A stretch of DNA of 44,566 bases from a virus. Below are positions 2,222-27,821 of the stretch, piece after piece (position 1 is the stretch's first letter; the number at the start of each line of letters is the position of its first letter). The notes beneath the pieces are model-generated. The model was not told where the DNA came from and searched no databases. It was given only the letters and a program-made list of their open reading frames with translations. The stretch covers positions 1-44,566 of the IMG/VR virus record IMGVR_UViG_3300025012_000161; one strand, given 5' to 3'. The position numbers and the translations under genes are program-made.

Positions 2222-2548
2222 ATGGGAAAAAACACTGCCAAACAGAAGGAATTTGAAAAGGAACTCGATGAAACTAGGAGGGTTTCAGCTTCTGGCCTGT
2301 TAAAAGACCTTATGCAGATAGCACCTTCTGCCATTGACTTCAAGAAGAAGCTGATGAAGGACTTGACAGAACCCACTTACCTAAGGCTTGCTAATGCAAA
2401 TGACATCCTTGACAGAACACTACCGAAGCCTACACAACAGATTTCAATGAATGCACAAGTCTTACAAGCCAATATGTCGAGAAGAGAATTGAAAGAGATC
2501 TTGATGAACAGGCTTGCAAGGCATGGAATTGTCGGTGATCAGGAATGA
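2222..2548 (+). CDS. terS: Probable terminase small subunit
   Basis: This is a 108-residue, helical, charged protein that opens the late operon directly upstream of the large terminase. Residues 60-72 read 'ANDILDRTLPKPTQ', close to the ILDR-x-GKPxQ segment common in small-terminase and DUF5681-type DNA-recognition proteins of phages. A GAGG ribosome site precedes the ATG by about 6 bases. Small terminase subunits bind the packaging site and hand the DNA to the large subunit. The call rests on position plus this motif. No helix-turn-helix is obvious, so a generic packaging-associated protein is the alternative. Confidence 0.55.
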   Translation: MGKNTAKQKEFEKELDETRRVSASGLLKDLMQIAPSAIDFKKKLMKDLTEPTYLRLANANDILDRTLPKPTQQISMNAQVLQANMSRRELKEILMNRLARHGIVGDQE

Positions 2549-2823
2549 ATGAAACCCCCACCTACAAACCAGATGAACTAGCCGAAAGGAGAAGCAATCT
2601 GGCTAGTGATTGCAGACTATGGACACCTAAGGATGCTCTCCTGGCTTGTTTAAGAGACATCGAAAAAGGAGAAGCTAACCCTTCCAAGATCATAATCGGA
2701 TTTCAAGCTGCTGAAGGTGATGGAGGAGTAGGATACCACTACTATGCAGCTGGAGTAACAAACCTTGAACTTGCTGGTCTACTGGCAATACTCTCCGATA
2801 GAGTTACAGACAACAGACGATGA
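2545..2823 (+). CDS. Hypothetical protein between the terminase subunits
   Basis: This is a 92-residue protein. Its ATG overlaps the stop of the small-terminase gene by 4 bases, and its own stop overlaps the start of the large terminase gene (ATGA), which indicates translational coupling. Pattern: 'PKDALLACLRDIEKGE' followed by a hydrophobic strand 'PSKIIIGFQ', then a Tyr-rich strand and 'TNLELAGLLAIL'. Similar small proteins of unknown role occur near packaging and structural genes of other phages. No catalytic motif is visible. Confidence 0.7.
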   Translation: MNETPTYKPDELAERRSNLASDCRLWTPKDALLACLRDIEKGEANPSKIIIGFQAAEGDGGVGYHYYAAGVTNLELAGLLAILSDRVTDNRR

Positions 2824-4607
2824 CTAGACTCAATCCTAAATTGGAGAAAGCAGTCTTTGATGATCTGGCAGAAGAAGACTTTAAAGCCGGAGAAAAGAAG
2901 AGAAAGATCAAGGTTACCAGAAGAAAGAAGCAGGTTAGAGAAAAGGTAGCTCAAGGTGATCTTGACTTTGACAGTATGTCCAGAGAAGAAATCCTTGAAC
3001 TGCTTGACATATTGAATGACGATGTTGATGCTGAATCAGAAATTGAAGAATGCCGGCTTTATCTCTACAAACCAAGTCATGAAGTCGCTCTCCAGTTTCA
3101 TCTCTGCACAACGATCATTCAGCTGGTGGGGGGAGGTAATAGGTCTGGAAAGACGACAACTTCTATAGTTGATTCCCTGATAGCTCTAACAGGCATTGTT
3201 CCTAAAGCTCTGAAAGGGATATATCCCAAGGCCAAACTATTCCACCCCCAATTTCACAGGGTAGTATCAACTGACTTTCCTAACGGGATTGAGAAGGTTA
3301 TACTGCCAATGTTCCTCGGTCCTAAAGCTTGGTTCCCACAATCAATGATAGCTGGATGGGATAGCAAGAACAGGACAATGTACATCAGAAACATCAACGG
3401 TACCATATCATCAGTTGAGTTTATGTCTTACGACCAGGATGTCGAGAAGTTTCAAGGCACATCAAGACATAGAGTCCTGTACGATGAGGAACCTCCTGAA
3501 GCAATCAGAAAAGAATGTAAGATGAGGGTAATCGATGTAGACGGTGTTGAAATCTTCTCTATGACACCAACCAAGGGAATGTCTTGGACCTATGACGAGC
3601 TTTACGAAAAACGTGGTCGTGAGGTGGCATATGATGAAGAGACAGAACTCGAAGAAGGATGTCGATCTGATCCCTCTATTCTGGTTGGTGCTCCTGATTC
3701 CGATCTCTTGGTTCCTGATGGTGATATTGATATCACTTTCTTCAGTTTCTTCTCTACACATAATCCAAACATTAATCAGGAAAGGGTAAGCAAAGAAGCT
3801 GGTAAGATGAGTAAGGAAGAACGTTCAATGCGAATGTTCGGCCAATACATCTCCTTCACTGGTAAAGTCTTTGGCAGATATAAAGAGCCTATACATCTGG
3901 TTAAGGAAGTATTTGACATTCCTGAAGACTGGCCCAGGTATATGGCACTTGACCCTCACCCTCGAACACCTTGTGCAGTACTCTGGGTTGCAGTTGATTC
4001 AATGGGAAGGAAATGGGTATATGATGAGCTCTGGACACAAGAAAGCTGCACCACTGAAAGTTTGGTTAGGCAGATGCTTGAAAAGGAGTTTTATCAGTAT
4101 GGTGAAGATAGGCAGATTGATTTGGATGGTAATCGCCTTGTATTCAATCAGGACATCATACCACTCAAGAATGTCAATGGAATGTGGATGCTTACAGGAC
4201 CCCTTCCATTCAAACGGCCCTTTGTTGTAAAGAGGTTTATCGATCCCTCAGCAGAGATACAGAATCCCAGTACAGGAACAACATTGACCAACGATCTCTT
4301 AAGAATGGGAATTGGTCATTTCTTTTTGGGTTCAAAGGACTTGACTCGAGGTATCATGAGGGTTAACTCTGCTTTTGAAAACAACGAAGTCTTTATCTTT
4401 CCACACTTAATCAGAACAAGGTATGAATTCAAACGTTATGTCTGGGATGATTACAGCCAGAAGTCAGAACAAAGAAATGCTAAGCAAAAGCCTAAAGATA
4501 AAGATGATCACATGATGGAGAATTTGAGAAGGATAATCGTTGAGGAGCCGATGTATGTAGCTCGTGAATCATATGATGAAGATCTGGGAAACTGGAGACA
4601 ATATTGA
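2820..4607 (+). CDS. terL: Terminase large subunit (packaging ATPase/nuclease)
   Basis: This is a 595-residue protein. Walker A is 'GGGNRSGKTT' at residues 104-112. Walker B is 'VLYDEEP' around 219-225, with catalytic Glu after Asp222, and coupling motif 'FSMTPTKG' follows. The C-terminal RNase H-like nuclease begins with 'YMALDPHP' (Asp378) and contains the late 'DHMMENLRR' segment. The length is typical. The enzyme translocates DNA into the prohead through the portal and cuts it. It starts in a 4-base overlap with the upstream gene, and the portal gene begins 10 bases after its stop. Residues 20-60 are an unusually charged N-terminal extension before the ATPase. It resembles the Terminase_6-type enzymes of podoviruses more than T7 gp19. 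Confidence 0.95.
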   Translation: MTRLNPKLEKAVFDDLAEEDFKAGEKKRKIKVTRRKKQVREKVAQGDLDFDSMSREEILELLDILNDDVDAESEIEECRLYLYKPSHEVALQFHLCTTIIQLVGGGNRSGKTTTSIVDSLIALTGIVPKALKGIYPKAKLFHPQFHRVVSTDFPNGIEKVILPMFLGPKAWFPQSMIAGWDSKNRTMYIRNINGTISSVEFMSYDQDVEKFQGTSRHRVLYDEEPPEAIRKECKMRVIDVDGVEIFSMTPTKGMSWTYDELYEKRGREVAYDEETELEEGCRSDPSILVGAPDSDLLVPDGDIDITFFSFFSTHNPNINQERVSKEAGKMSKEERSMRMFGQYISFTGKVFGRYKEPIHLVKEVFDIPEDWPRYMALDPHPRTPCAVLWVAVDSMGRKWVYDELWTQESCTTESLVRQMLEKEFYQYGEDRQIDLDGNRLVFNQDIIPLKNVNGMWMLTGPLPFKRPFVVKRFIDPSAEIQNPSTGTTLTNDLLRMGIGHFFLGSKDLTRGIMRVNSAFENNEVFIFPHLIRTRYEFKRYVWDDYSQKSEQRNAKQKPKDKDDHMMENLRRIIVEEPMYVARESYDEDLGNWRQY

Positions 4608-4617
4608 AGGAGGGATT

Positions 4618-6549
4618 ATGTATCAACTAGACCCATCAAGTGCTGAATACAAGACGTTGCTTAGCTTGCTTAGGCAGTACATACAGGCTGGACAATCAGC
4701 TATCTCTTCAAGAACTTCAAAGTGGAATGAAGCTGAGAAGAATAGAAAAGCCTACATTAATCTGAAAGAAGTAGATAAGAAAAGACTTGAGGATGCTAAT
4801 TCAGGAAAAGCAGGTTATCCTGGGGTAGCTCCTATTGTTGTTCCTATCACATTTGCTATGAATATGACTACCCTTTCCTACCTAATGTCAATATTCACAG
4901 CAAGAATGCCTGTCATACCAATCATTGGTGGAGGAGATGATTCTGAAGCAGCACGTAAGATGGAATCAATTCTTCAATATCAATGCTCCATGATGAAGTA
5001 CATGTTAAAGCTGTACATTTGGTTCCAAGATGTTTTGGACTACGGTGTTGGTGTATCCTTCAACTACTGGAAAACTGAACATACCAAATACATTGCTGAT
5101 GCAAATCAAATGGGCATTATGGGTATGATTAACAAGCTTACAGGAAATCAACTTCCACCAAGGAAGATAATCCTGGAAGGTATCTCATATGAAGGAAATG
5201 ATTGTGATATAATCGATCCCTTCAATCTCATAGTCGACCCCAGGTATCCCCTATCTGATTATGAAAGAGGTGATTTCTTCGGTTACTCCTACACAGCTTC
5301 AATTATGGATATCAAACACAAGGGTACCAAAGGAGAACTGGTAAACACTGAAAAAGTGCAGAAGTCAAATGTACAAGCCAATAGCAGTAAACGTGATGAA
5401 GTGATGGGAGCAAGTAAGACAACAAACGTCGGAGGAAAAGGTGTAACACAAGTCCACAGATTGTTTGTCAAGATCATTCCTTCTGAATTTGGCCTGTCTG
5501 AAGATAATTCACCAGCACTTTGCGAGTTCAGAGTAACGTCAAATAATGTCATTATTTACGGTGATATGATATCAAACATCCATGGTAAGAAGCCTGTATC
5601 AATCCTTGAATTCAATCCTGATGGACATTCACTTTTCAATCTTGGTCAGAGCGAACTTCTTTCAGGACTACAGAATCACTTGTCTTGGCTATTCAACTCC
5701 CACATGGATAACGTTAGGAAGTCTCTCAATGACATGCTCATTGTCGATCCCTCACGAATCAACATGAAGGATTTGACAGATCCTGAGCCTGGGAAAGTAC
5801 TTCGTCTTTCAGCTAGTGCCATGGGTCAAGATGTTAGAAGTATTGTTCATCAGCTTCAGGTACAGGATGTCACTTCAGGTCACCTCAACAAAGCTTCTGT
5901 AGTTATTGACTTCATGCAAAGGATTTCGGCAGCTACCGACAACATGATGGGTATGCCTAACTTCGGTAGAAGAACAGCTACTGAGATTCAGAACATATCT
6001 GTTATGGCTGGCGGTAGAATGAAAACCTTTGCTGAGCTTTGTCATGTAATGGGTATTAAACCCCAGCATTACCAGTTCATAGCAAACACCCAGCAATATC
6101 TATCCCAAGCAAAAGCATATCAAATTGTTGGAGAGAATGGAGATTTTTCAAAAGTAGCACAGGTAAGTCCTGGAGAGATACTTGGAGAATTCCATATTCC
6201 TCCTGCAGATGGAACACTTCCTCCTGACAGGCTTGCTCTTGCACAAACATGGAAAGAGTTATTCAACATGATCATAGCAAGTCCAGCAGCTCCTGTTCTT
6301 ACACAAGTATTCAACCCTGTAGCTATCTTTGAAAACATAACCAACCTCATGGGTGCTAAAGACATAAAGAGATTCTTGAATGTAGCACCCCAAATGCAAC
6401 CTCCACAAGTAATGCCAAATGAACAAATTGATTCAGAAGTACAAGCTGGAAATATGGTTCCACTTTCTTCTATGCTTGGAGGAGGAATGAATCCAAACAG
6501 CTTAGTTGAAGATCAAGTTGAAGATCAATTTAGAGGAGCAATGTTATGA
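4618..6549 (+). CDS. Portal protein (head-tail connector)
   Basis: This is a 643-residue protein. The start at 4618 is chosen because AAGGAGGG lies just upstream and after the terminase stop; an in-frame ATG at 4564 lies inside terL without such a site. The sequence has the hallmarks of large podovirus portals: an N-terminal helical segment with 'SRTSKWNEAEKNRKAYI', a stretch rich in conserved Met and Tyr around the clip/wing region, and a C-terminal Gln/Met/Pro-rich tail. It would form the dodecameric ring through which DNA enters and leaves the head. Its place directly after terL supports the call. The last 4 bases overlap the next gene. Confidence 0.9.
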   Translation: MYQLDPSSAEYKTLLSLLRQYIQAGQSAISSRTSKWNEAEKNRKAYINLKEVDKKRLEDANSGKAGYPGVAPIVVPITFAMNMTTLSYLMSIFTARMPVIPIIGGGDDSEAARKMESILQYQCSMMKYMLKLYIWFQDVLDYGVGVSFNYWKTEHTKYIADANQMGIMGMINKLTGNQLPPRKIILEGISYEGNDCDIIDPFNLIVDPRYPLSDYERGDFFGYSYTASIMDIKHKGTKGELVNTEKVQKSNVQANSSKRDEVMGASKTTNVGGKGVTQVHRLFVKIIPSEFGLSEDNSPALCEFRVTSNNVIIYGDMISNIHGKKPVSILEFNPDGHSLFNLGQSELLSGLQNHLSWLFNSHMDNVRKSLNDMLIVDPSRINMKDLTDPEPGKVLRLSASAMGQDVRSIVHQLQVQDVTSGHLNKASVVIDFMQRISAATDNMMGMPNFGRRTATEIQNISVMAGGRMKTFAELCHVMGIKPQHYQFIANTQQYLSQAKAYQIVGENGDFSKVAQVSPGEILGEFHIPPADGTLPPDRLALAQTWKELFNMIIASPAAPVLTQVFNPVAIFENITNLMGAKDIKRFLNVAPQMQPPQVMPNEQIDSEVQAGNMVPLSSMLGGGMNPNSLVEDQVEDQFRGAML

Positions 6550-6812
6550 GAGAGCAATATCTAAGGGAAGAAGATGCTAAGATAGACAAATTACTTCTGT
6601 TGAAAGCAGAGTTAGAAAATCCTGGTGTCAAATACTTTATGGAGTTGATAGAAGAAAAGAAGGCAATGAATCAGAAGATGTATAGAGGTGCAAATGATTT
6701 ACAGGAGCTAGGAAAGATACAAGGGTATGATAATCTGGCAGAGGAACTCTTAACATTTATAAAATTTGTAGAATCAACATCTGAAGTAGATTTAAGAGAT
6801 AATCCAAAATAA
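6546..6812 (+). CDS. Hypothetical coiled-coil protein after the portal
   Basis: This is an 88-residue, strongly helical and charged protein. The start overlaps the portal stop (ATGA), with GAGGAG 7 bases upstream. 'EDAKIDKLLLLKAELENPGVKYFMELIEEKK' suggests a coiled coil. Small helical proteins of this kind often lie between portal and scaffold. Function is not recognisable. Confidence 0.75.
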   Translation: MREQYLREEDAKIDKLLLLKAELENPGVKYFMELIEEKKAMNQKMYRGANDLQELGKIQGYDNLAEELLTFIKFVESTSEVDLRDNPK

Positions 6813-6827
6813 TTCTTAAGATTTCTG

Positions 6828-6857
6828 TTTACAAGCACACTTTAAGTGTGGTATACT
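6828..6857 (+). promoter_or_regulatory. Promoter for scaffold and capsid genes
   Basis: TTTACA (6828-6833), 18 bp, TATACT (6852-6857) with a TGG extended -10. The spacer contains a perfect 7-bp inverted repeat, CACACTT-T-AAGTGTG (6836-6850), placed where a regulator could block or activate polymerase. It drives scaffold, the major capsid protein and the genes after them. Confidence 0.65.
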
Positions 6858-6881
6858 ACAAAATGAACGGAGGAACATGTT

Positions 6882-7628
6882 ATGTTTAAATTTCACAATC
6901 CTCACAAGCTTTGCATTCGAAGGAATACTCCTGGGGAAGATGGAGGCAATGGTGGTGGAACAGAGGGCCGTAACGGAGACAATCCAGCAGACGAAGGAAA
7001 CTCCAATTCGGACGACAAAGATCCACTGGAAGGTAAGTCTCCTGAAGAAATTGCTAATGCTTACAAAGAACTTCAAAAGCAATTTACTTCTGTTTCAACT
7101 CAAGCAGCTAAAGCTGATGAGCTGGAGCAACTTCTTTTTCAGGTTATGTCAGCTCTTCCACAAAATAAAGATGGTGAAGATGGAAAGAAAGAGGATTCTT
7201 TTGTAACCGAAGAAGAAGCCCTTAATCTTTTCAAGGACCCCAAAGGAACACTGGAGAACTTGTTCAAGAAGGTTTTGAGCACTGCTACTTCAAAAACCAA
7301 GGAAGAGTTAGATAAAGAAAATAAGGTTGCTGAACAGAGAGCAGAAATCAGGAAGACCTTCTATGATACAAACAAAGATCTGGTGGGTAAAGAGATCTTG
7401 GTAGGAGTTATTTCTGACATGGTGCAGAGAGCTAATCCTAACGTTCATCCAGCAAAGCTAATGCCCAAGATTGCTGAACTTACCAGGGAAGAAATCAAGA
7501 AATTGACTGGTACATCATCTTCAGCAAATAACAACTTAGGTTCAGAAACAAATGGTAGAAAGAATGATGAAGAATTACCAGCAAACCAAAAACAAATCAA
7601 CAGTCTGATAGCACGACACAGGAGGTAA
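6882..7628 (+). CDS. Probable capsid scaffolding protein
   Basis: This is a 248-residue, acidic, low-complexity protein lying immediately upstream of the major capsid gene. Residues 15-45 are Gly/Asn/Asp-rich and disordered. The middle is predicted helical, with heptad-like runs ('IANAYKELQKQF', 'KADELEQLLFQVM'). The C-terminus is basic ('INSLIARHRR'), as is usual for the capsid-binding end of scaffolds. GGAGG lies 8 bases before the ATG. Scaffolds template prohead assembly and are then lost. Position and composition support the call, with no family-level match claimed. Confidence 0.75.
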   Translation: MFKFHNPHKLCIRRNTPGEDGGNGGGTEGRNGDNPADEGNSNSDDKDPLEGKSPEEIANAYKELQKQFTSVSTQAAKADELEQLLFQVMSALPQNKDGEDGKKEDSFVTEEEALNLFKDPKGTLENLFKKVLSTATSKTKEELDKENKVAEQRAEIRKTFYDTNKDLVGKEILVGVISDMVQRANPNVHPAKLMPKIAELTREEIKKLTGTSSSANNNLGSETNGRKNDEELPANQKQINSLIARHRR

Positions 7629-7634
7629 CAAAAC

Positions 7635-8900
7635 ATGAAAAAGTATTTCCCCTCATTCTTGGTAGCGCTGCTTATTATGGCAGCATATTCTGTAGCTACC
7701 GCTTTTGGTTACAGCACTGACGGCCTCATGTTGGCAGCCGGTGTTACGACCCTCGGTCTCTTCGGTACAGGAGAATTTGAAACTGATGAAGACCCCAAGG
7801 ACTGGCGACAGACTATCCTCTATCTGTTCCCCAATGGGGATACCCCACTTACGGCTCTACTCTCCATGGCCAACAGCGAAGGCACTTCGTCATCTACCTT
7901 TAACTGGTGGGAAAAAGGTCTTGTAGCTTTTCAGACAACCATTACCGCAGCCGAGGCCAACGTAGCAGCAGTTGATCTTACCGTCGCTAATTCGGCAATG
8001 TTTGCTGGTGGACAACAGCTCTTCAACCCCCGTACCAATGAAGTTCTTCTGGTTGATGGTGACCCGGCCTCGGCTACTGCAGTTAAAGTTGTACGTGGAG
8101 CAGCTGGTTCATCGGCAGCAGCCATTCTTGAAGGAGACTTCCTCTTCGTCATCGGTACAGTATACGCCGAGGGCACGACCTCCGGTAAGGCCATCTATAC
8201 CGGACCCGGAAAGCAGTACAACTTCACTCAGATCTTCAAACGGTCTGTCGATATCACCAACTCCGCAGCGAAAGAAGAAACCCGCACTGGGGACAAATAC
8301 GAAGATATGAAGGAAGAAACTCTTCGTCAGTACTCCATCGACGTTGAAATGGCATACCTCTTTGGCCGTCGCTTTGAAGATACCGGATCAAATGGTAAGC
8401 CCCGCCGGTTCACTGGTGGTCTGGATACTCAGTTCATATCCACCAACCGCTTCGATGCCAATGGCATGATGACCAGGACCCTCTGGAACAACTGGATGGA
8501 GCAGCTCTTTGCTTATGGCAATGAGGAAAAACTCCTCTTGGCCGGCCGTACCTTCATTCGGTACATTCATGAGATGGTTCAGCAGAACACCCAGTATCAG
8601 ATTGCAGGTGAGACCGTTTATGGTGTACGCCTCCAACGTCTGATGACTCCTTATGGTGATCTTCTGCTCAAACGTCATCCCCTGTTCTCCGGTAACACCT
8701 ATCTCAGGACCTACGGTATTGCTCTTGATCTTCCCTACATCAAAGAGCGTATCTTCCGTGAGATGGATTTCAAAGAGAATGTCCAGGCAAATGACGCCGA
8801 TGAAAAGAAAGACCTCTTCATTGGTGAGCACGGCCTTGAGGTAAACCATGAGAATGTTCATGCAATCTTCGAAGGAATTTCCGACTTCCAGAACGTTTAA
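7635..8900 (+). CDS. Major capsid protein (DUF5309-like HK97 fold) with a leader-like N-terminus
   Basis: This is a 421-residue protein. GGAGG lies 9 bases before this ATG, which fixes the start. Residues 33-80 ('GLFGTGEFETDEDPKDW', then 'LFPNGDTPLTALLS' and 'FNWWEKG') match the start of DUF5309-type major capsid proteins, and the C-terminal two thirds ('EMAYLFGRRFED...') fit that family. Oddly, residues 1-26 look like a Sec signal peptide: Lys-Lys, a hydrophobic core 'FLVALLIMAA' and a 'VATAFG' end that could be a signal peptidase site. The codon choice is richer in GC than in neighbouring genes, as expected for the most highly expressed gene. The leader might instead be a delta-like segment removed during maturation. 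Confidence 0.9.
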   Translation: MKKYFPSFLVALLIMAAYSVATAFGYSTDGLMLAAGVTTLGLFGTGEFETDEDPKDWRQTILYLFPNGDTPLTALLSMANSEGTSSSTFNWWEKGLVAFQTTITAAEANVAAVDLTVANSAMFAGGQQLFNPRTNEVLLVDGDPASATAVKVVRGAAGSSAAAILEGDFLFVIGTVYAEGTTSGKAIYTGPGKQYNFTQIFKRSVDITNSAAKEETRTGDKYEDMKEETLRQYSIDVEMAYLFGRRFEDTGSNGKPRRFTGGLDTQFISTNRFDANGMMTRTLWNNWMEQLFAYGNEEKLLLAGRTFIRYIHEMVQQNTQYQIAGETVYGVRLQRLMTPYGDLLLKRHPLFSGNTYLRTYGIALDLPYIKERIFREMDFKENVQANDADEKKDLFIGEHGLEVNHENVHAIFEGISDFQNV

Positions 8901-8932
8901 TCAATAACCCATCAACTTTGGAGGTGATGCAA

Positions 8933-9331
8933 ATGAAATATATCTTGGCTTTCATTCTTTCTCTTGCCCTTACAGCTCCGGCTGTAGCAGGAGACTGGCG
9001 ATCGGTTGCTCTATTCAGTAAGTATTCCTCAGCCGATACCAATGCAGCATATTCAGCAGTAGTTAACACTACAGGCATGAAGCATAAGTCCTTTGTTGTC
9101 AATGGATACAACATGTCCACCCTGGCAGCGGATTCTCTTTCCGGTACAGCCCTCATTCAGTGTGGTCCTACTTCTTCCGGCCCCTGGTTCACTTGTGTTC
9201 AAGAGGACAGCACGGCAATATCCCTTACTGCAAACGGGGGGCTGCAATGGTCTGACATGTATCCTTTTGTAAGGGCATCTTGGGCAAAGACAGCCGGCCG
9301 AGCTTCAGTCTGGCTCTATTACGGTAACTAA
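8933..9331 (+). CDS. Small secreted-looking structural protein (possible capsid decoration or head protein)
   Basis: This is a 132-residue protein directly after the capsid gene. The start at 8933 sits 8 bases after GGAGG; upstream in-frame ATGs at 8918 and 8927 are too early or too close. Residues 1-20 are a textbook signal peptide with cleavage after 'APAVAG'. The mature part is rich in Ser/Thr/Ala with two cysteines ('IQCGPTSSGPWFTCV') and ends in a beta-type 'RASVWLYYGN'. Position suggests a head decoration or minor virion protein, but the leader is unexpected for a cytoplasmically assembled virion. Codon use is like that of the capsid gene, suggesting high expression. Confidence 0.7.
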   Translation: MKYILAFILSLALTAPAVAGDWRSVALFSKYSSADTNAAYSAVVNTTGMKHKSFVVNGYNMSTLAADSLSGTALIQCGPTSSGPWFTCVQEDSTAISLTANGGLQWSDMYPFVRASWAKTAGRASVWLYYGN

Positions 9332-9344
9332 CCACAACAAAAGA

Positions 9345-9383
9345 ACTCCTCTGAAATCTTAGGAAAGTAAGAGGAGTATTTCT
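9345..9383 (+). terminator. Hairpin after the small structural gene
   Basis: ACTCCTCT (9345-9352) pairs perfectly with AGAGGAGT (9370-9377), followed by ATTTCTC. The U-run is weak. It probably reduces read-through, so that capsid and the small protein are made in excess over later genes. Confidence 0.55.
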
Positions 9384-9396
9384 CTGGAGGAATGTT

Positions 9397-9732
9397 ATGA
9401 GCAAAGCAATAGCAGATATGTCAAGAGATGAACTCAAGGAACTCAACAAGGAAAAGGGCTTAGGAGTCAAGGTAAAGACTTCGATGTCCGATGAGGATTT
9501 ACGCAAGGTCGTACAAGAGGCGTTGGATAAAAATGCTTCTGAAGACGGTAAATCTGGCCCTGAATCGGCGGAAGACGAGTCCGATGAAGTCACTTTCTAT
9601 ACGAAATACCTTGGGCTGCACATTGGTCCTTGTATCTTCCGGCAAGGTGAGTACACTACCGATGATGCAGAGATGATCAAGCTGATCAAGAAATCCTCGA
9701 AGTTCGGAGTATCTGTCTTCGTTAAGAAGTAA
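9397..9732 (+). CDS. HeH/SAP-like small protein of the structural block
   Basis: This is a 111-residue protein. GGAGG lies 6 bases before the ATG. Residues 5-45 form a helix-extended-loop-helix module ('MSRDELKELNKEKG', then 'VKTSMSDEDLRKVV') resembling HeH/LEM, SAP and Rho-N small nucleic-acid-binding folds. Nearly the same module closes the phage SSB (31625-32650). Residues 47-65 are an acidic linker. The C-terminal half ('GLHIGPCIFRQGEYTTDDAE...') resembles small beta domains in phage structural regions. It is flanked by terminators on both sides. Its role is unknown; a DNA-binding head protein is possible. Confidence 0.7.
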   Translation: MSKAIADMSRDELKELNKEKGLGVKVKTSMSDEDLRKVVQEALDKNASEDGKSGPESAEDESDEVTFYTKYLGLHIGPCIFRQGEYTTDDAEMIKLIKKSSKFGVSVFVKK

Positions 9733-9757
9733 TAAGCATATCCTGCAACCCAAGATA

Positions 9758-9797
9758 AAAGGGAATATATTCTAGCATTGGGGTATATTCCCTTTTT
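9758..9797 (+). terminator. Strong intrinsic terminator before the fibre gene
   Basis: AAAGGGAATATA (9758-9769) pairs over 12 bases with TATATTCCCTTT (9784-9795), and the 3' arm runs into TTTTT. This is a classical rho-independent terminator separating the high-expression capsid genes from the fibre and tail genes. Confidence 0.85.
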
Positions 9798-9820
9798 AGT
9801 ATCTATAGAAGGGAGAAAGA

Positions 9821-12800
9821 ATGAGAAAGCTTAATAAATCGTATTACATTACTTTGGCTATAATTAGCCCGATCATAGTGCTTTTAGTTGCTCAGGCATT
9901 TGGTGGTCCAGCTATTCCTGTATATAAGAAAGCTACAGCTAATAAAGATGGACTTATGTCTAAGGAAGGATACAGAGACTTAAGTTCAGCTAAGCAGGAC
10001 ATAAAAGACCTTAAACAGCAGGGATATAGTACTTCTGGTATATCTCAGAGTGCCGCCGATTTAAGGTATCAATCTATTGAAAAACAATCATTATATTCTT
10101 CTGGACAAGCAGCAATTGATGCAGCACAGAATTCAAACATCAATGCACGAATGGCTACGTCCACAGCTAATGCTACTTTTGAAACAAAAGCAGATATGGC
10201 CACTTACACCTCCGCAGGCGGGGGGAGGGTTACGCAGGATGAGGTGGCGGCGGGGTATGCAACAAAGGTTCAGGCCGACAAACAGCCGGTGACTTATATT
10301 GGCATGGGCAACATTAAACTCCGCACTACTTCAGCATGGTTCAGCAACATATCATCGGCAACCGGAGATATAGGCACAGCCTTGGTAGCTACTACATCGA
10401 AGGTTTATAAAGCCCCTCCCGGCAAATTGAACTTAACCACCGAAATGACGCTTACCGGGCTTACCGGCAATGCTTTTACCTCTGCCGTGCAATACATTCG
10501 AACATGGATCAATCCGAACACTGGCACCATGTTTGTTATGCCGTTCGGCAACGCATCGGCAATGGATACGGGGGAATGTGGTTTATGGCGTAGTACCAAC
10601 GGATCATCTTTTGCGCGAGTTCTTTCCCCCTCAACTACCCCGGCAGTGTCTACTATTCAAGGCATTGTACAAATCGACTATGACAGTGACGGCAACCTGT
10701 ACGCTACCCGCTATTCAAAAGTGGACGGCAACAATAATACCGGCGTTTTTAAGTCTACCGATGATGGCGCAACATGGACGGACATAACGGCGGCAGCATA
10801 CGCCAGTGTCACCAACCAGCGCAACCACACCCACGGCATTTCTATCGACCGGACACAAACTCCCAACGTGATTTATGTGAACGTGGCAGAACGACAGGGA
10901 GTACCACTCTCCAACGGAGAAATAGCGGCAGTCAAATCGAACGATGGCGGGGCTAACTGGACGGCAGCATATACGACCAATACAACCACTTACCCACGTG
11001 ATGCCGTCTTGACCGCCCTTGTCGGCGTCTATGCCGGTGATGGGTATCGGCTCTACAGTGGGGAATGGCCCACGGCTGGCAACGGCGGCACTCCGGCAAC
11101 AGGCGGCACCCGCCGTATTCTTAGGACTACTGATGACAGTACCTTTACTGTGGTGCATGAGGAAGAGTTGGGCAACGGCAACCCTTGGGATTATACGTGG
11201 TCTTTTGTTCAAAACGGCAACGGCAATATCTACGCTCCATTCTCCCCTACCGGAACTTTGCTGGCATCTGCTGATGAAGGCTTGACGTGGCAGAAGATAC
11301 ACAGCCCCGCCGACATAATCGCAAGCCATGCGGGTAATTTGGTCAGCATGTCGAACTTTTATGACGATCAGGCGGTTCTTTCCTACAAGGCGAACAACGC
11401 CTCAACTGCCTTTGACAACGGCATCCTGATTACAGAAAGCACTTCTGCAAAGTTCGGTTTTAGCGGTATCGCTCTCGACAAGATCAGCCAAGGGAATGAC
11501 CACAACCATGCAAATGGCGGCGGGGCGGCTATTCCTTTCACCGCTGTAACGCTCACCGGAACCTGTAATGATACAACGTACGTGCGTGGGGATGGGGCGT
11601 GTGCGGCAGTAACAGGTGGGACGGGGACACCGGGCGGAAGTGATACTCAGGTTCAGTTTAATGATGGAGGCTCGTTTGGGGGCGAGGCTGGCTTTATTTA
11701 CGACAAGACCAACAAGTATTTTGGTATCAACGCCACGTCACTTGAAGGCCCGATTCACACCAAAACTGATTCCAATGGCTACTGGATACAGGAAAAGGCA
11801 TCGAGCCTCAACGCTGGCGCTGCTTCAGGTCTTATATTTAGACGATCACGTGGCACGATAGCATCTCCTGAGTCTATTCAGGCCAATGACGTAGTAACTT
11901 TATTCGCAGGTATGGGGTATGACGCAACGGCACCGGCAGGCCATAGGTATTTGGCGGCGGTACGAGTTGATGGGGAAGCTGCACCAAATGGGGCAAACGC
12001 ACATCCCGGTTTTCTCCAATTCATGACCGCAACGGGTGAAAGCTCATCAGGGGCGGCTGACGGGGATGCTTCATATACTGAAAAAATGCGCCTTACTTCT
12101 GCCGGGAATCTGTTGATCGGAAACACTGACGGCACAGACAAGCTCAGTGTAACGGGCACTGTTTCAGCAACTGCCTTTGTGGGCGACGGATCAGGGCTTA
12201 CTGGCGTTGGCGGAATGCAATACAGCGCGATAGTTTCCTATGGTGATGGGCAAAATCCAAGCATTAGTGACTTTGGCAAAGTAGTTATTTTTACAGCAGG
12301 GGCCACGCATACCGTACCTCAGTTGATAAGCACAGGGGCTACGTACACAACTAAACCCGCCCGTACCTTACTCGTCAACAACACTTCTTCAGACATGACC
12401 ATTGATAGTGCTTCAGCGGGTGACTATTTCAATATCAACGGCGTTCATAGTAATTCAGCATGGACTCTTGGCGCTTATAAAAGTGCGGCATTGACACCTC
12501 TCGATTCAAGCACTGGTTCATATCAGGTAGAGGATATTTTAAGTAGCACAGCCACCCCGACAGAAATTATAGTTGGCAATACGACAGCCACCGTAAGCGA
12601 CACCGGAACCGACGGCGCATTCACTGTATCTCCGGATGCAACCGGCATCATGAAAGCCACATCTGTAGGCGTCCGTATAGGCGACACAACCAGCCCAACA
12701 TTGAAATTTGAGGTTATAAACAATGGCGTAGCGGGGTCAGCTACCCGCACCAGCGCCGGAACTGGCCAAAATGGCGTGTTTAACTTCATTCACTCCAACA

Positions 12801-13108
12801 CTGCCACCGATGCCGGGGATACGTTTGGATCATCAATTTCGTTTGGGTTTACTGATTCAGGAGCTGCCAATTCACTTGTTGCGGATATTGGCGCGGTTAG
12901 GGACGGATCGGACACTACCGGGGCCATTGTTTTTTATCCTAGAGTGAGTGGGACGCGCACGGAAAAACTTCGCATATCATCGTCAGGCGCTGTTGTTATT
13001 CAAAGCGGCGGTTCAGTCAACAAAGCAATCTGCTGGAAGTCTGACGGTAAAACCCTTGGCTACTGTTCAACGGTTATTGCTGCTGACGGCAGCTGCACTT
13101 GTAATTAA
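9821..13108 (+). CDS. Receptor-binding fibre/spike with sialidase-type Asp-box propeller
   Basis: This is a 1095-residue protein. Residues 1-28 resemble a signal peptide ('ITLAIISPIIVLLVAQAFG'). Residues 30-150 are a coiled, Ala/Ser/Gln-rich stalk. Residues 190-530 hold several Asp-box-like repeats ('STDDGATW', 'SNDGGANW', 'SADEGLTW'), the mark of BNR/sialidase-type beta-propellers that bind or cut glycans. The C-terminal third has repeated beta-rich fibre modules, including 'GDGSGLTGVGG', typical of trimeric tail fibres, and a Cys-rich end. From about 10,200 to 13,108 the base composition is much richer in GC than the preceding part of the same gene and the next genes, so the receptor-binding portion was probably acquired by recombination. 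The likely job is attachment to a surface polysaccharide; enzymatic activity is unproven. Confidence 0.8.
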   Translation: MRKLNKSYYITLAIISPIIVLLVAQAFGGPAIPVYKKATANKDGLMSKEGYRDLSSAKQDIKDLKQQGYSTSGISQSAADLRYQSIEKQSLYSSGQAAIDAAQNSNINARMATSTANATFETKADMATYTSAGGGRVTQDEVAAGYATKVQADKQPVTYIGMGNIKLRTTSAWFSNISSATGDIGTALVATTSKVYKAPPGKLNLTTEMTLTGLTGNAFTSAVQYIRTWINPNTGTMFVMPFGNASAMDTGECGLWRSTNGSSFARVLSPSTTPAVSTIQGIVQIDYDSDGNLYATRYSKVDGNNNTGVFKSTDDGATWTDITAAAYASVTNQRNHTHGISIDRTQTPNVIYVNVAERQGVPLSNGEIAAVKSNDGGANWTAAYTTNTTTYPRDAVLTALVGVYAGDGYRLYSGEWPTAGNGGTPATGGTRRILRTTDDSTFTVVHEEELGNGNPWDYTWSFVQNGNGNIYAPFSPTGTLLASADEGLTWQKIHSPADIIASHAGNLVSMSNFYDDQAVLSYKANNASTAFDNGILITESTSAKFGFSGIALDKISQGNDHNHANGGGAAIPFTAVTLTGTCNDTTYVRGDGACAAVTGGTGTPGGSDTQVQFNDGGSFGGEAGFIYDKTNKYFGINATSLEGPIHTKTDSNGYWIQEKASSLNAGAASGLIFRRSRGTIASPESIQANDVVTLFAGMGYDATAPAGHRYLAAVRVDGEAAPNGANAHPGFLQFMTATGESSSGAADGDASYTEKMRLTSAGNLLIGNTDGTDKLSVTGTVSATAFVGDGSGLTGVGGMQYSAIVSYGDGQNPSISDFGKVVIFTAGATHTVPQLISTGATYTTKPARTLLVNNTSSDMTIDSASAGDYFNINGVHSNSAWTLGAYKSAALTPLDSSTGSYQVEDILSSTATPTEIIVGNTTATVSDTGTDGAFTVSPDATGIMKATSVGVRIGDTTSPTLKFEVINNGVAGSATRTSAGTGQNGVFNFIHSNTATDAGDTFGSSISFGFTDSGAANSLVADIGAVRDGSDTTGAIVFYPRVSGTRTEKLRISSSGAVVIQSGGSVNKAICWKSDGKTLGYCSTVIAADGSCTCN

Positions 13109-13110
13109 CA

Positions 13111-13145
13111 CCGCCACCATCACCGCCGAGGACGCATGGTGGCGG
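13111..13145 (+). terminator. GC-rich hairpin after the fibre gene
   Basis: CCGCCACCAT (13111-13120) pairs perfectly with ATGGTGGCGG (13136-13145). No U-run follows, so it may stabilise the 3' end or reduce read-through rather than act as a full terminator. Its composition matches the fibre gene, so it may have come with that DNA. Confidence 0.4.
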
Positions 13146-13179
13146 ATAACGACACTTCAAACACTGTGGAGGAGGATAT

Positions 13180-13761
13180 ATGAATAAATCTCATCGTTAT
13201 ACAATAGGACTTGGAAATGCTACAATATTTCTAAGAATAAGGAATTCAATTCGTGAATACTATAATTTCATCACCGGCGAATGGGATGCAGCAGAATCAG
13301 CTGACACTCAAAAATTCATGACTGAATATCCTGACTCCTCTCCACTAGATTCTGGATATGTAGTTGAATTCACAGCTCCTACCGGAGGACCTTTTGATGT
13401 AGAGATTGTAGACTCCACTGATTCAACAGTCATAGCTTTAACTGATACAACAAGTAGTTCTGCTTCGGGTTCTGGTTCAGAAATAGAAAGGGTAGTTATA
13501 GACCACAACTATGAAGGAGCTAATGCTCTTGCTTATAGGACTTCACTTGATGTCGGAGTACAAGGAGCAACAGTAACAGCTTATCTTAAATCAGATTACG
13601 ATGCAGATAGAAGAAGTTCAGAATATATTCAAGGAGTAACATTGACAGTAGCAGGAGGAGTTTGGAGTAATACAATGAGTCTTATTCCAGGTACCTATAC
13701 GTTGGTATTCAAGAAGATTGGATACTTTGGACCTGATACTACGGAGGTAACAGTGGCATGA
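13180..13761 (+). CDS. Hypothetical beta-rich structural protein
   Basis: This is a 193-residue protein. GGAGGAGG precedes the ATG by about 5 bases. The C-terminal half ('YRTSLDVGVQGATVTAYLKSD', then 'SLIPGTYTLVFKKIGY') looks like a carboxypeptidase-regulatory or Ig-like beta-sandwich: a repeated strand pattern ending in a peptide-like 'PGTYTLVFKK.GY.G' motif common on virion surfaces. The N-terminal half has 'YNFITGEWDAAES', a motif seen in tail-associated proteins. It returns to the AT-rich codon use of the genome after the GC-rich fibre. It overlaps the next gene by 4 bases. Confidence 0.65.
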   Translation: MNKSHRYTIGLGNATIFLRIRNSIREYYNFITGEWDAAESADTQKFMTEYPDSSPLDSGYVVEFTAPTGGPFDVEIVDSTDSTVIALTDTTSSSASGSGSEIERVVIDHNYEGANALAYRTSLDVGVQGATVTAYLKSDYDADRRSSEYIQGVTLTVAGGVWSNTMSLIPGTYTLVFKKIGYFGPDTTEVTVA

Positions 13762-14405
13762 GCATATTAGCTACTCCATCAACCCAACAGGTAACAAATA
13801 AAAATTCTCTAGCTCAATTGAGAGTAGATGTCCTTATAAAACTTAGAGAGGAAGTCGGTAATCCTACCTTCTGGACATTCGACGAGGTAGATGGATATTT
13901 AAACAAAGGATACAAATTACTTTGCAAGGACGGAGATTTTATTATTTCAGAGGGACTTTTAACTCTTCAGACTAGTGTATCCATATATGATTTACCATCG
14001 GATTTGGTTGAGGTATCGAAATTCTACCTTGATTGTTTGACCCAAAAGTCCAGACTCAGATTCTCAAAAGCATCAGGTACTCCACTCAATTGGGATTACT
14101 TTGGTGCAGGTAAGATAATGGTAGATCCTATACCAGCTGCTACAGATAGTGGAGATACAGCTGACTTTGAATATAGGGCTTATCCTGCTTTGCTTTCAGC
14201 TGATGCTGATGAAGTAATAAATATTCTTGACGTAAGAGAAGGTGTCTTTAACTACGCACTTTACGAAGCTCTTGATAAAGAAGGTGATGGACAAGATAAG
14301 AAGAGAGCTTTGTTTTACTACAATGAATATGAGAAGTACAAAGCAAAAGCATTACTTGTTATTGAGAATATGAAACCGGCTTATGTATTGGCTGGAGGAA
14401 GATAA
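13758..14405 (+). CDS. Head-tail adaptor/connector protein
   Basis: This is a 215-residue protein. 'FWTFDEVDGYLNKGYKLLCKDGDFI', read in parts as FWTFDEVDGYLNKG and the helix after it, is the usual opening of phage adaptor proteins (DUF6682-like; 'W...di..yLN.a...'). It is followed by beta strands with 'YDLPSDLVEVSKFYLD' and a C-terminal helical tail. In podoviruses such adaptors sit under the portal and connect it to the tail nozzle. It starts in a 4-base overlap with the gene before and ends in a TAATG overlap with the tail-fibre gene. Confidence 0.7.
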   Translation: MSILATPSTQQVTNKNSLAQLRVDVLIKLREEVGNPTFWTFDEVDGYLNKGYKLLCKDGDFIISEGLLTLQTSVSIYDLPSDLVEVSKFYLDCLTQKSRLRFSKASGTPLNWDYFGAGKIMVDPIPAATDSGDTADFEYRAYPALLSADADEVINILDVREGVFNYALYEALDKEGDGQDKKRALFYYNEYEKYKAKALLVIENMKPAYVLAGGR

Positions 14406-16006
14406 TGGGACTTCAAAGCGTTAACATAGATCCAAGGACTCAAGAATCACTTATTCTTTCCTTGTCAAATATTATTCAGGAGCTTTATAATGTCCTTGAT
14501 AATATGCATGGACTAGGTGATGAAGATGAGAGATATGTTAAGCTTGGAGAACTCAAGGCCCTTATCACCGATGAGATATCTGGAGATACAGATGGTACAT
14601 TAGTTGCTGAGATGGTAGCTGCCATATCAAGAGAATTCTTCATCAGTGAAATATATCAAGATCTGATAACCAGAATAGATTCAGAAGCAGTAATTGCTAA
14701 CATAAAGAATAACATTGAAGAAATAAATAACCTGTATGGTGATACAGTATCTGCCGCACAATCTGCTATAGCAGCTGGACTATCAGCTGAATCAGCGGCA
14801 ACATATGCAGAATCTGCAGCTACTTCTGAAACCAATGCGGGACTATCAGCTGATGCAGCAAACACTTCAGCAGGGATAGCTACAACAAAAGCAGGAGAGG
14901 CAGAATCTTCAGCCACAGCAGCATCAGTAGCAAAGACAGCAGCAGAAGCAGCAAATACTTCGGCAGGAACTTATGCTTCAGCAGCTTCAACACATGCAGA
15001 TACAGCGTCAGCTAAAGCTACTGAGGCAGGAGGATATGCAACAGCAGCAAGTGGATACGCTACTACAGCTACAACAAAAGCAAGTGAAGCAAGTGGCTAT
15101 GCTACCACTGCTGTAACAGCTTCTGGAAATGCAGCAACAAGTGAAACTAATGCAGGTAACTATGCAACCAATGCAAACAATTCAGCTGTGGCAGCATCTA
15201 ACTCTGCTATTACAGCTCAGACATACGCAGCTCAAGCAGAACAAGATTATACAGCTTTAAGTGAAACAGTATCTACTCACACAACAACTTTGGGGAATCA
15301 TACATCTTCAATTGAAACTCTTGAAGGTTCATATGATGGTATCAAAGTTAAGTATGGAGTTAAGCTGGATGTAAATGGAAGAGTTACTGGATTTGAAATC
15401 CTTGGTACTGGAGTAGAAACTACAGCAGCTTTTCTTGTAGATAAATTTATCATTGCTAATCCAGGATATTCTGATGTAGTTCCTTTTGCAATATACAATA
15501 ACAAAGTTGTAATGGATGGAGCTTACATAAAGGATTTGACTGTAGATACATTACAGATCAAAAACAATGCCACAACAAATGCTTTAAGTGCTAGCAGATA
15601 TACGACACAAGGAATAGCTTACGTGGATAGAACCTGGTTCTCAGGAGATTCAACTGCTTCTGTAACTCTAACCTGTACAGGTGCTCCTGTTATAATAACT
15701 GGTAATGTTAAATTTGGATGTAGTCTGGTGTCAGATGGGGTAACTCCAGGAATGGCTTATGTTGATATAATGATTGATTCTACTGTATTGATTTCTAAAT
15801 ATCTCTCCGGAGTTGGTGGAGCTATGAATCTTACACTATCAGGGGAGATATTAACAAGGACTACAATGAATACTCCTTCTGCTGGTTCTCATACTTTCAA
15901 ATTAAGGCTTAGAGGATTTGGTATGGCAGGTTCTGGATACAATGGAAATACTACAATGCTTTGGTTTGAAGAGGCGGATATCATTGTATTGGAGGTTAAA
16001 AAGTGA
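14405..16006 (+). CDS. Tail fibre with alanine-rich stalk and DUF1983 domain
   Basis: This is a 533-residue protein. Residues 115-290 are an extremely Ala/Ser/Thr-rich repeat with Ala-Glu-Ser-Ala units, typical of trimeric fibre shafts. Residues 315-395 ('KYGVKLDVNGRVTGFEIL', 'FLVDKFIIANP', 'PFAIYNNKVVMDGAYIKDLTV') match the DUF1983 domain at the C-terminus of lambda gpJ-type host-specificity proteins. The end is a beta-sandwich-like head. GGAGG lies 6 bases before the ATG. In a podovirus it would be an appendage or central tail fibre. The second fibre-like gene (9821-13108) suggests two kinds of adhesin. Confidence 0.8.
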   Translation: MGLQSVNIDPRTQESLILSLSNIIQELYNVLDNMHGLGDEDERYVKLGELKALITDEISGDTDGTLVAEMVAAISREFFISEIYQDLITRIDSEAVIANIKNNIEEINNLYGDTVSAAQSAIAAGLSAESAATYAESAATSETNAGLSADAANTSAGIATTKAGEAESSATAASVAKTAAEAANTSAGTYASAASTHADTASAKATEAGGYATAASGYATTATTKASEASGYATTAVTASGNAATSETNAGNYATNANNSAVAASNSAITAQTYAAQAEQDYTALSETVSTHTTTLGNHTSSIETLEGSYDGIKVKYGVKLDVNGRVTGFEILGTGVETTAAFLVDKFIIANPGYSDVVPFAIYNNKVVMDGAYIKDLTVDTLQIKNNATTNALSASRYTTQGIAYVDRTWFSGDSTASVTLTCTGAPVIITGNVKFGCSLVSDGVTPGMAYVDIMIDSTVLISKYLSGVGGAMNLTLSGEILTRTTMNTPSAGSHTFKLRLRGFGMAGSGYNGNTTMLWFEEADIIVLEVKK

Positions 16007-20596: not shown

Positions 20597-23500
20597 ATGC
20601 CACTTTCTAAAGAAGATTTTCTCAGTGGACATATTACTTCTAAGCCTTTATCTGCAGCTGATTTTGGTATAGGTACTGGTAATGTCATGACTGTAACTCC
20701 TTCAGGAGTAGAGGGTGAAGAACCTTCACTTGCTGAGCTTATGTATAAAGCTGATGGTCTTGTTCCTATGGGGGTTAAAGATACTCCTTACAGAAGACAA
20801 ACCATTACTCAAGGAAACTTCACCAATTTTACTATTCCCAGAGATACAGCTATACTTAGCACAGTAGGTGTTGAACCCGAAACTCCTGATCAGCCTCATT
20901 CATTACTGCAGAAGATGTTTAAGGCCTTGGATTTTCCTGGCTCTAAGGTAAGAGAGTTGATGTCTGGTATGCCTGCTGAAGAAGGTAATAACTGGGCAAA
21001 GATACTTGAACAAAATCTCCTGCCTAAGCTTGGTGTTGATATCCTTGACTATGAAGAACCACAAGACTTGAAAGCTAAGATATATAAGAAGCTTCTGCAG
21101 AACAGCATGGAAAAGCAATACAACCCAATGGCAATTGATCCCAACATTCCAGATGTCATTCCTGGAACGAATGTAAAGAGAAGCTTTGTTGATCAGTTCA
21201 AAAGAATGATGTCGGATGTAACTAATCCTGCATGGCATCAGGAGAAAGCTATACAGAGCACTGGATTGGCTATGGATATATTAACAGATCCTATAGCTAC
21301 ACTAGGTCCTGGTATACTTGCTAAAGAATCAGCTACTGGCTCAAGAACTTTGTTGTCTTTGAGAACTCCTGAAGCTATGGGAATGAAGTCGCATTTCATC
21401 GACTTGACACCCAAGTTCATAAACACCAGAGTTAATTCAACACTTGCAGATGTAGGCAATACAATAGCAAAGACAAGAGTAGGACAGGTTATAGGCAAAG
21501 CTTTGATGCCGGGATTTGGGCTACCAAAAGATTACTACAACATGCATCAAGACCAGCTTGATAAGATTAACTACAATGTACAGAAGCTGTATGAACTTGC
21601 AGACCAGAAATTCAAACATCTTTCAGATGATGAACTAAAAGCTGTATCTCATTTTGTAGAAGGTAACACTGCTCCACTTGCTAGCCTTACTCCTGAAGGT
21701 AGGGTAAGAGTTCAGCAAGCAGCACAAGACTTTACTGTATTCAGAGATGACTTTGCAAATAAACTAGTTGCTAGTGGTGTATTGAAGACACAGCCGACCA
21801 ATGCAAACTATGTTCCACATATATATCCTGGACAGACCAAACAAGAATGGATTCGTACAGGACCTATGGGTAGTATAAAAGAAGGTAGTCCTTTCTTCAC
21901 TAAACAGAGAAAGTATACTACACTTGAAGAAGCAATGCTTACTGGAAAGGAACCTGTAGAAAAGATTGATGACATACTCAGATTCTACGGCAGTGCTGGT
22001 TACACTGAAATGGGCAAGAGAGAACTCATTGACAAGACTGTTAATCAGTTTGGAATAAAGGTACATAACATAATTCAGGCAGAAAAAGCTATGGCTAATT
22101 ATGGTCCTGACTTCGGTATCTTCGCTCCACGAGGAACAATGAGTTTTCACAAAGAAGCATATGTACCTAAGAACATTCTCAAGAGTCAGGGAAATCTTAT
22201 TCAGGTAGATGTTAATGATTTGAAGATGGGTAACATGTTATCAAAGAATGTTCCAGTATATATACTACCCAAATCAATAGCAGACAACCTCAATAGAGTG
22301 GAGAAAGTATTTGGAAATGATGAAGCTACAAAAGGTATTATAGGACTATATGACAGACTACTTCAATTCTGGAAGGGTAGAGTAACTGTTACATCTCCTG
22401 GCTTCCACCTCAGAAACTCCTATTCAAACGTAGCAAATGCCTACTTAGGAGGTCTTGAGGATTTCTCACGATATAAGACAGCCTATAATATTGCATCAGG
22501 CAAGCAGGGTACGTTTGCTGGCAAATCTTATGATACAATTCTTGATCTAGCCAAACGTCATGGTATATATTCACCAACAGCCGGACATTGGATGAAGGAT
22601 ATGTTTGGTCCAGAAATTCTTAAACCAGCTTCTGTACAACAACTTGTCAATCCTTTGTCTACAAGATTTGGACTAGTTGAGGGGGGAAGGAAGGTTGGTT
22701 CATCTGTTGAGAATAATGCAAGGCTAGCAATGTTCATAGACAGGTTAGCTAAAGGTGATACACCTATACAAGCTTCACTCCACACTAAGAAGTACCTGTT
22801 TGATTATTCTGAACTTACTTCATTCGAACAGAATGTAATGAAAAGAACCATCCCCTTCTATTGTGTTCCGGATGATTCTGAAGCCCTGACTAAAGAAGGA
22901 TGGAAGCTTAGAAAAGATCTTAAGGTTGGAGAGCTTATTCTTACTTACAATATTGAAAAGGATCTGCTTGAATGGAAGCCGATACAGGGTCTTGCCTCAT
23001 TTGAATACAATCAAGACATCAATGTTATAAGTAATGGGGCAAAGAAGTTTAGATGTACTTCAGAACACAAATGGCCTGTTCACAGAGTCTATAAAGATAC
23101 AAGAAGCCTAGTAAAGTTTGAAGATCTTAAGGCTGGACATAGACTTATAATGTCGGCTTCTTGTGAAGAAAATGTAGGCAGTATATTCACCCCTGAACAA
23201 GCAGCACTATATGGATGGATAATAACAGACGGTACCTGGAGATTCAGAGGTAATCATTGTGAATCAAGAATCTATCAGAAAGAAAAATTCCTTGACGAAA
23301 TTGAAAAGCTTGTTGAGAATAAGGGAAAATGTGTTAATGGGGTAAGAAGATATAGGGTTACCAAAGAAAAACTTAAGCCTTTGTATGAACACCTCAAGAA
23401 TTTTGATCCTGTGTCAATAGTATTGAAACTTGATAAAGCAGCAAGTCAGGCTATGTATGAAGCTATGTATATGGCAGAAGGTTCACAGACAACAGAGAAG

Positions 23501-26206: not shown

Positions 26207-26503
26207 ATGGAGGACCTAATCAAAGATCATGCTGCACTTGTAGTTGTATTGATATCTGCCCTAAGTTCAGGTCTCCTTGGATGCTTGATATATATCTTCA
26301 TCAGTCTCAGAGATGAGGTAAGGGAAGTCAGGACACTCCTTGAAAAGTTAACTGGCAATATATTCAAGAGACTTAACAGAGCAGAAAGAAGCCTTGATAG
26401 ACTCTGGGAAGCACATAGAATTCATATGCAAGAAGGTGGATGTATACAACCCCACCTAAACTTTGATAAGGAGGATGACGATGCCGATGAAAGTGAGTTC
26501 TAA
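26207..26503 (+). CDS. Small membrane protein of the lysis block (holin or inner-membrane spanin candidate)
   Basis: This is a 98-residue protein. The start at 26207 has GGAGG 9 bases upstream. Residues 8-33 ('AALVVVLISALSSGLLGCLIYIFI') are one transmembrane segment. A charged helical stretch follows ('RDEVREVRTLLEKLTGN'), likely a coiled coil, then an acidic tail. One membrane segment plus a coiled coil fits an i-spanin; being directly before lysozyme fits a holin. It overlaps the lysozyme gene by 23 bases. Confidence 0.6.
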   Translation: MEDLIKDHAALVVVLISALSSGLLGCLIYIFISLRDEVREVRTLLEKLTGNIFKRLNRAERSLDRLWEAHRIHMQEGGCIQPHLNFDKEDDDADESEF

Positions 26504-27565: not shown

Positions 27566-27821
27566 CTTATTACTTTCTGGATGTGCTACAATGGGAGTAA
27601 GAGAAAGCAGTGTTCTAAACAAAACTACAGGAGAGGAATGGATAGTTAGACTTCAGCATGATGGGAACCTAGATTTTCAGAAGGGTGAAGTAAAGATAAA
27701 GGTAGATAACAGAGGTAGAGCTTCTCTCCTGGAACAAGCATTACAAGCCCCTCTTGTTGGTATCATGGGGACTACCAGTAACTTGTTAAACAATTCTATA
27801 GAAAAGGCATCTGTCAAATAA
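27543..27821 (+). CDS. Lipoprotein of the lysis block (outer-membrane spanin candidate)
   Basis: This is a 92-residue protein. The start at 27543 is 7 bases after AAGGAG, which lies inside the lipase gene; the ATG at 27537 is too close to it. A short signal peptide ends in the lipobox 'LLSGC' with Cys14, and Ala at +2 favours sorting to the outer membrane. The mature part is 78 residues with a beta-type middle and an amphipathic end. Rz1-like o-spanins are lipoproteins at this place in lysis cassettes, but they are usually Pro-rich and shorter, so another outer-membrane lysis or exclusion role is possible. It overlaps the lipase gene by 23 bases. Confidence 0.7.
   Translation: MIRLLLLSLLLSGCATMGVRESSVLNKTTGEEWIVRLQHDGNLDFQKGEVKIKVDNRGRASLLEQALQAPLVGIMGTTSNLLNNSIEKASVK

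Follow-up and report, generated by a model that had tools for sequence, protein, structure and literature searches.

The window analysed here, i.e. the 44,566-base virus record IMGVR_UViG_3300025012_000161, contains a tailed-phage head and tail module (2222 to 16006) in which three proteins, namely the major capsid protein (MCP, starting at 7635), the small protein that follows it (8933) and the fibre (9821), begin with extensions that resemble Sec leaders. Besides a terminase and an acidic scaffold-like protein, the module comprises three components of the SU10 type, namely the portal (PF23899), the capsid (PF17236) and the adaptor (PF24175), and the order portal - small protein - scaffold - capsid is the same as in SU10-type phages. 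Contig L090 (IMGVR_UViG_3300025030_000286) matches the window at 100% and joins both of its ends via a repeat of ~126 bases; the genome is thus complete and circularly mapping. This contig does not include the capsid region and gives no confirmation of the leaders. Relatives in the class of Geomonas edaphica suggest that the hosts are Geobacter-like bacteria. The features on which the analysis relies are the following:

1-130 and 44441-44566, direct end repeat of ~126 bases, bridged by contig L090
6882..7628, + strand, scaffold-like acidic protein (by position and composition), N-terminus MFKFHNPHKLCIRRNTPGEDGG
7620..7625, + strand, Shine-Dalgarno sequence AGGAGG of the capsid gene, within the last scaffold codons, Shine-Dalgarno score 7, 9 nt to the ATG at 7635
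7635..7739, + strand, leader-like N-terminal extension of the capsid protein, residues 1-35 (MKKYFPSFLVALLIMAAYSVATAFGYSTDGLMLAA), from homologue comparison and signal score
7728..7730, + strand, in-frame ATG (Met32), four residues upstream of the canonical capsid start, possible second start, Shine-Dalgarno score 0
7740..8900, + strand, MCP core, SU10_MCP (PF17236) / DUF5309, HK97 fold (Pfam, phmmer, Foldseek)
8933..8989, + strand, Sec leader of the post-capsid protein (MKYILAFILSLALTAPAVA, followed by GDW), score 7.1, kept in 8/8 family members
8990..9331, + strand, mature part of the small post-capsid protein with CGPTSSGPWxTC (homology to G150, alignment)
9397-9732, gene without a leader between 8933 and 9821
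9821..9898, + strand, Sec-type leader of the fibre (MRKLNKSYYITLAIISPIIVLLVAQA, followed by FGG), score 3.1, a leader being present in every complete relative
9899..13108, + strand, mature part of the fibre or spike-like protein, BNR-like region at residues ~290-385 (weak Pfam match to BNR_2, 0.008)
13031..13105, + strand, four-cysteine C-terminal tail CWKSDGKTLGYCSTVIAADGSCTCN, common to exported proteins of Geobacterales genomes

All three extensions combine a charged n-region, an apolar h-region and a small-x-small c-region, less clearly in the fibre, and each follows a ribosome site: AGGAGG at 7635, GGAGGTGATG at 8933 and a weaker AGGGAG at 9821. The starts, leaders and ribosome sites given in the preliminary description are thereby borne out. 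N-termini were evaluated with a simple substitute for SignalP that combines h-region, charge and a von Heijne-type cleavage matrix, the latter serving purely for scoring alongside eight E. coli control proteins, of which OmpA, PhoA, MalE, LamB and Bla obtained 8.7-14.7, while LacY, GapA and RecA were rejected. The scores of the trio are 9.0 for the MCP (8.99), 7.1 for 8933 and 3.1 for the fibre. An export-type N-terminus was found in 5 of the 49 called proteins of the window, the other two being an Rz1-like lipoprotein at 27543 and a 64-aa membrane protein, which are expected lysis or membrane proteins. The background pass rate among distinct called proteins of related phage loci is 60/2252 (2.7%); by position in these loci it is 0/85 for the MCP, 0/80 for the gene before it (scaffold) and 1/75 for the gene after it, and N-termini shuffled by composition pass in 0.8% of cases. 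With such low rates, three hits among four adjacent genes are not due to chance.

The post-capsid protein has no match among annotated phages. It aligns over its full length, including the leader, with the product of the gene after the SU10-type capsid in the IMG/VR phage G150 (35% identity, E 8e-26). Other members are located downstream of SU10-type capsid genes in L200, L202, L204-L208 and in G106 and G123, two genomes from the class of Geomonas edaphica, and one more is present in G082; a wider search of the phylum yielded one weak, stop-containing match, which was disregarded. These proteins constitute a hitherto unnamed family whose genes lie behind those of SU10-type capsids; most members share the motif CxPTSxGPWxxC. 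The N-termini of the eight distinct members, which show 35-55% identity, all rank as canonical signal peptides (7.0 to 17.1), and the retention of the leader at such divergence indicates that it is under selection.

Direct homologues of the fibre are likewise absent from annotated phages. We defined its family by the last 25 residues (CWKxDGKxLGYC...CTCN), and members were found by DNA pattern and genome searches; the C-terminus of the window protein is 74% identical to L172/L173. Complete members occur in phages (the window; L172, also L178, L179 and L186; L174/L196; G150, i.e. L194; L187, also L184 and L189; L190) and, in three of nine cases, in Geobacterales genomes (L175 from Geomonas edaphica, L182 and L183). 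Their bodies and leader sequences differ greatly. A charged start and an apolar core are found in 9/9 complete members, six of which pass the automatic score and three of which were called by eye. The combination of an N-terminal export leader with four conserved cysteines near the C-terminus would be expected of an exported, disulfide-bonded protein. The chromosomal protein of Geomonas edaphica (L175, 973-6141) is a collagen-like exported protein of 1722 aa with the same four-cysteine tail as the phage fibres, and an exchange between phage fibres and host surface proteins is possible.

The leader is thus a family feature of both 8933 and the fibre. The earlier suggestion that a subset of the proteins is exported for another purpose is well supported for these two, given the leaders conserved in diverged families, the conserved cysteines and the presence of leader-bearing relatives also in bacterial genomes; both are very probably Sec substrates.

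The capsid protein matches the SU10_MCP profile (PF17236) with 9e-38 (130.9 bits vs the curated cut-off of 24.1), and phmmer aligns it with the VP1 capsid 9in6 (4e-64) from residue 38 of the query and residue 3 of 9in6, which is also the best Foldseek match (E 4e-37; SU10 capsid chains E 1.6e-10). It shares the family and, over residues 38-419, the HK97 fold with the capsids of SU10 (gp9), Vibrio phage VP1 (9in6) and LUZ24 (gp62). In the AlphaFold2 model (46 sequences) residues 78-419 are confidently folded as an HK97-type capsid; residues 1-46 have pLDDT below 50 and lie outside the HK97 core, with one free helix at 8-23. The leader is an insertion of ~35 codons, located exactly between the conserved ribosome site and the canonical capsid start, which in the VP1-like branch lies right before the GLRGTG N-arm. 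All eight annotated homologues (from Vibrio, Microcystis, Roseobacter, Caulobacter, Desulfofustis and other phages) start directly before this arm, and so do ~80 IMG/VR relatives retrieved with the alignment query, nearly all with their own ribosome site and a few with starts that could not be placed. The leader was found in none of these ~90 closest relatives, and the window capsid with its 35 extra residues is a single case within its branch; a search for it in 141 genomes of the order of Geomonas returned none.

Conservation of the leader in capsid homologues, which had been considered in the preliminary description, was therefore not observed. Homologues that start downstream with their own ribosome sites, named there as grounds for abandoning the leader, do exist, yet the leader stands, because the ribosome site of the window precedes it and the downstream Met has none. 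A wrong start codon was rejected in view of the strong ribosome site at 7635 and the lack of one at Met32. The cleavage site ATAFG proposed for the MCP is possible, but it is one of several candidates and is followed by a second apolar stretch (residues 30-42).

Leaders on the MCP were also found in two phages more distant than the nearest ~90, L200 and L202, the former reached by searching outward from the post-capsid family. The L200 capsid is of the SU10 type (Pfam 1.3e-84), with MKAFFRKIFLFPFSILMG preceding its canonical start. The L200 scaffold (2067-2945) begins with MKRWLRMIFLFPFAVFMG, and both proteins carry MKxxxRxIFLFPFxxxMG, a similarity reached in 0/20000 shuffles. The L202 capsid carries MKFTAWLKKVALFPLSVLMG. 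Its close relative L203, which like L202 shares the data set with contig L090, is leaderless owing to an exact 57-nt in-frame indel after the ATG; the ribosome site is the same and the remaining 939 nt of the MCP gene are 94.6% identical. The exactness of this indel indicates that the leader is real and dispensable. An assembly error is unlikely, as the exact leader indel occurs independently in L202/L203 and the L200 leader was obtained from a different data set.

A related N-terminus, MNKWIKKIMLFPFWMMMG, is carried by the prophage scaffold L215 (2455-3501, minus strand; genome G123). We define the LFPF module of Desulfuromonadia phage head proteins as MxxWxxKIxLFPFxxLMG at the start of a scaffold or capsid. 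It is present in L200, L202 and L215, the scaffold form MxxWxxKIxLFPFxxxMG being conserved in L215 and L200, and the mutual similarity of the four modules (L200 capsid and scaffold, L202 capsid, L215 scaffold) exceeds that of shuffles. On phage scaffolds, this N-terminus looks like a defined module for membrane binding. In this group of phages, hydrophobic N-termini have thus been gained repeatedly by head proteins, namely by the pair that makes the first contact during prohead assembly. There is no support for descent of the window capsid leader and the LFPF module from one source, their similarity being no greater than that of shuffles.

To account for these findings we tentatively prefer a combination of two mechanisms, in which 8933 and the fibre are Sec-exported and the MCP leader is a membrane anchor for head assembly. 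Translated from their ribosome sites with a cleavable leader, 8933 and the fibre would be exported to the periplasm, where their conserved cysteines would be oxidised, and they might then act at the host envelope (e.g. by changing the host surface) or join the virions at lysis. The hydrophobic extension of the MCP, if translated from the site at 7635, would bring the protein to the inner membrane, and heads would be nucleated there with no export involved; in relatives a module equivalent to it is found on the scaffold, with which the capsid protein pairs in that step of assembly. Membrane anchoring is preferred since full export of a capsid protein would be self-defeating. Membrane-associated prohead assembly, one of the earlier hypotheses, therefore survives as the best remaining reading for the MCP and gains from the module shared by scaffold and MCP in L200, but the window itself has no such shared module. 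Removal of the leader by a prohead protease finds no support: no protease family is present among the searched window proteins, and the scaffold is encoded by a separate gene. The window thus differs from HK97/T4-type capsids with a protease-removed delta domain, no prohead protease having been found nearby. A distant precedent for anchoring is provided by T4, in which head assembly begins at the inner membrane, to which the portal is bound (PMC9958956). The T4 prohead (gp20 portal with gp40) contacts the membrane via the portal and a helper protein, whereas in the window the shell protein carries the peptide, and in relatives the scaffold does so too.

Several observations weigh against membrane anchoring. 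The window MCP leader is dissimilar to the LFPF module and looks more like a cleavable signal, full use of which by Sec and signal peptidase would lose the capsid protein to the periplasm. The scaffold of the window is itself leaderless (maximum 9-residue Kyte-Doolittle mean -0.2), nearly all relatives build heads without a leader, and L203 shows that it is dispensable. The signal calls rest on a simple scorer, and the model of 8933 (mean pLDDT 47) is too poor for a fold search.

The alternative that survives best, though we consider it doubtful, is that the MCP extension is retained for structural reasons, as a long hydrophobic N-arm packed inside or between capsomers and unrelated to membranes. 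The extension does join the N-arm of an HK97-fold capsid whose homologue VP1 9in6 is matched from residue 3, and the N-arms of the SU10 MCP differ between hexamers and pentamers (PMC9509320). However, the model has low confidence in this region and no packing, the L202/L203 pair indicates that the fold is independent of the leader, and the charged start, the core with mean hydropathy 3.16 and the small-x-small end follow the pattern of a targeting peptide. Another reading is a deliberate export of a fraction of the capsid protein, e.g. as a surface decoy, with the leader read by Sec and signal peptidase: its cleavage-site score of 9.0 is like that of PhoA in the same test, and two neighbours are predicted to be exported. 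We nevertheless regard such partial export as improbable, in view of the heavy cost of losing shell protein and the lack of the usual cleavage site in the LFPF modules of relatives; moreover, we know of no tailed-phage precedent. Equally improbable is a dual start, with most capsid protein made leaderless from Met32 (7728) and the long form being minor. Met32 lies four residues upstream of the canonical start, and a Met is retained just before that start also in L200 and L202, but 7728 has no ribosome site (score 0, compared with AGGAGG at 7635), and in L203 the ribosome site directly serves the leaderless start. Least probable of all is that the leader is a remnant, neutral or mildly deleterious, of a recent in-frame recombination event involving a nearby leader gene; this would fit the rare and sporadic occurrence of the leader and its differing presence between near relatives, but not its occurrence in at least two unrelated capsid lineages and, as the same module, on scaffolds, nor its GC3 of 0.51, which agrees with the capsid core (0.53) and not with the remaining head genes (~0.34).

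Membrane anchoring of the MCP would depart from the textbook view, in which the heads of tailed phages assemble in the cytoplasm; in the literature searched, coverage of which was partial, no tailed-phage capsid was reported to have a signal peptide. Virion proteins made with a signal peptide are familiar from the filamentous phages (coat proteins pVIII and pIII). Those phages assemble in the membrane during extrusion, whereas the phage of the window is a tailed one, which has a terminase, a portal and an HK97 capsid. Sec routing with a cleavable leader is also known from the lysis proteins of phages (signal-peptide endolysins, Rz1 lipoproteins, T4 RI), but the three leaders discussed here are encoded in the head/fibre region, outside the lysis cassette. 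The two putatively exported families of this region, of which one also occurs in bacterial genomes, suggest that part of phage development takes place in the periplasm, a stage undescribed as far as the literature searched shows, and could serve as a marker set for phages of Geobacter-like bacteria. L202 and L203, a natural pair with and without the leader, already provide the comparison needed to study the site and manner of head assembly. A broader generalisation, that some tailed phages of Geobacter-like bacteria build their heads on the inner membrane via a peptide on the shell and/or scaffold protein and coat or equip their virions with periplasm-oxidised proteins, so that they would be completed only at lysis, seems unlikely at present.

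Other leader-like N-termini were noted outside the window. In L176 (5573-7078) a head-tail stabilisation-type protein whose canonical start (MWQVFRQRDFTGGENL) has its own ribosome site acquires, from an in-frame upstream start, an N-terminus like that of a lipoprotein, MRYLLLLLILLAGCGQKDTND. In phages whose capsids are unrelated, small leader-bearing proteins are encoded either between the scaffold and capsid genes or between those for portal and scaffold (L187, 3534-4109; L196, 13164-13514). Elsewhere in the window, the lysis cassette (26481-27821) encodes a phage lysozyme, a class 3 lipase-like protein and an overlapping Rz1-like lipoprotein. A 1291-aa protein (20597-24472) with no match in Pfam or NCBIfam contains an intein-like stretch (CVPDDSEALTKEGW ... 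GQIVLTGNTW) inside an otherwise virion-like sequence, and a pentapeptide-repeat protein (43001-43738, minus strand) is encoded by a nearly perfect array of 15-nt units.

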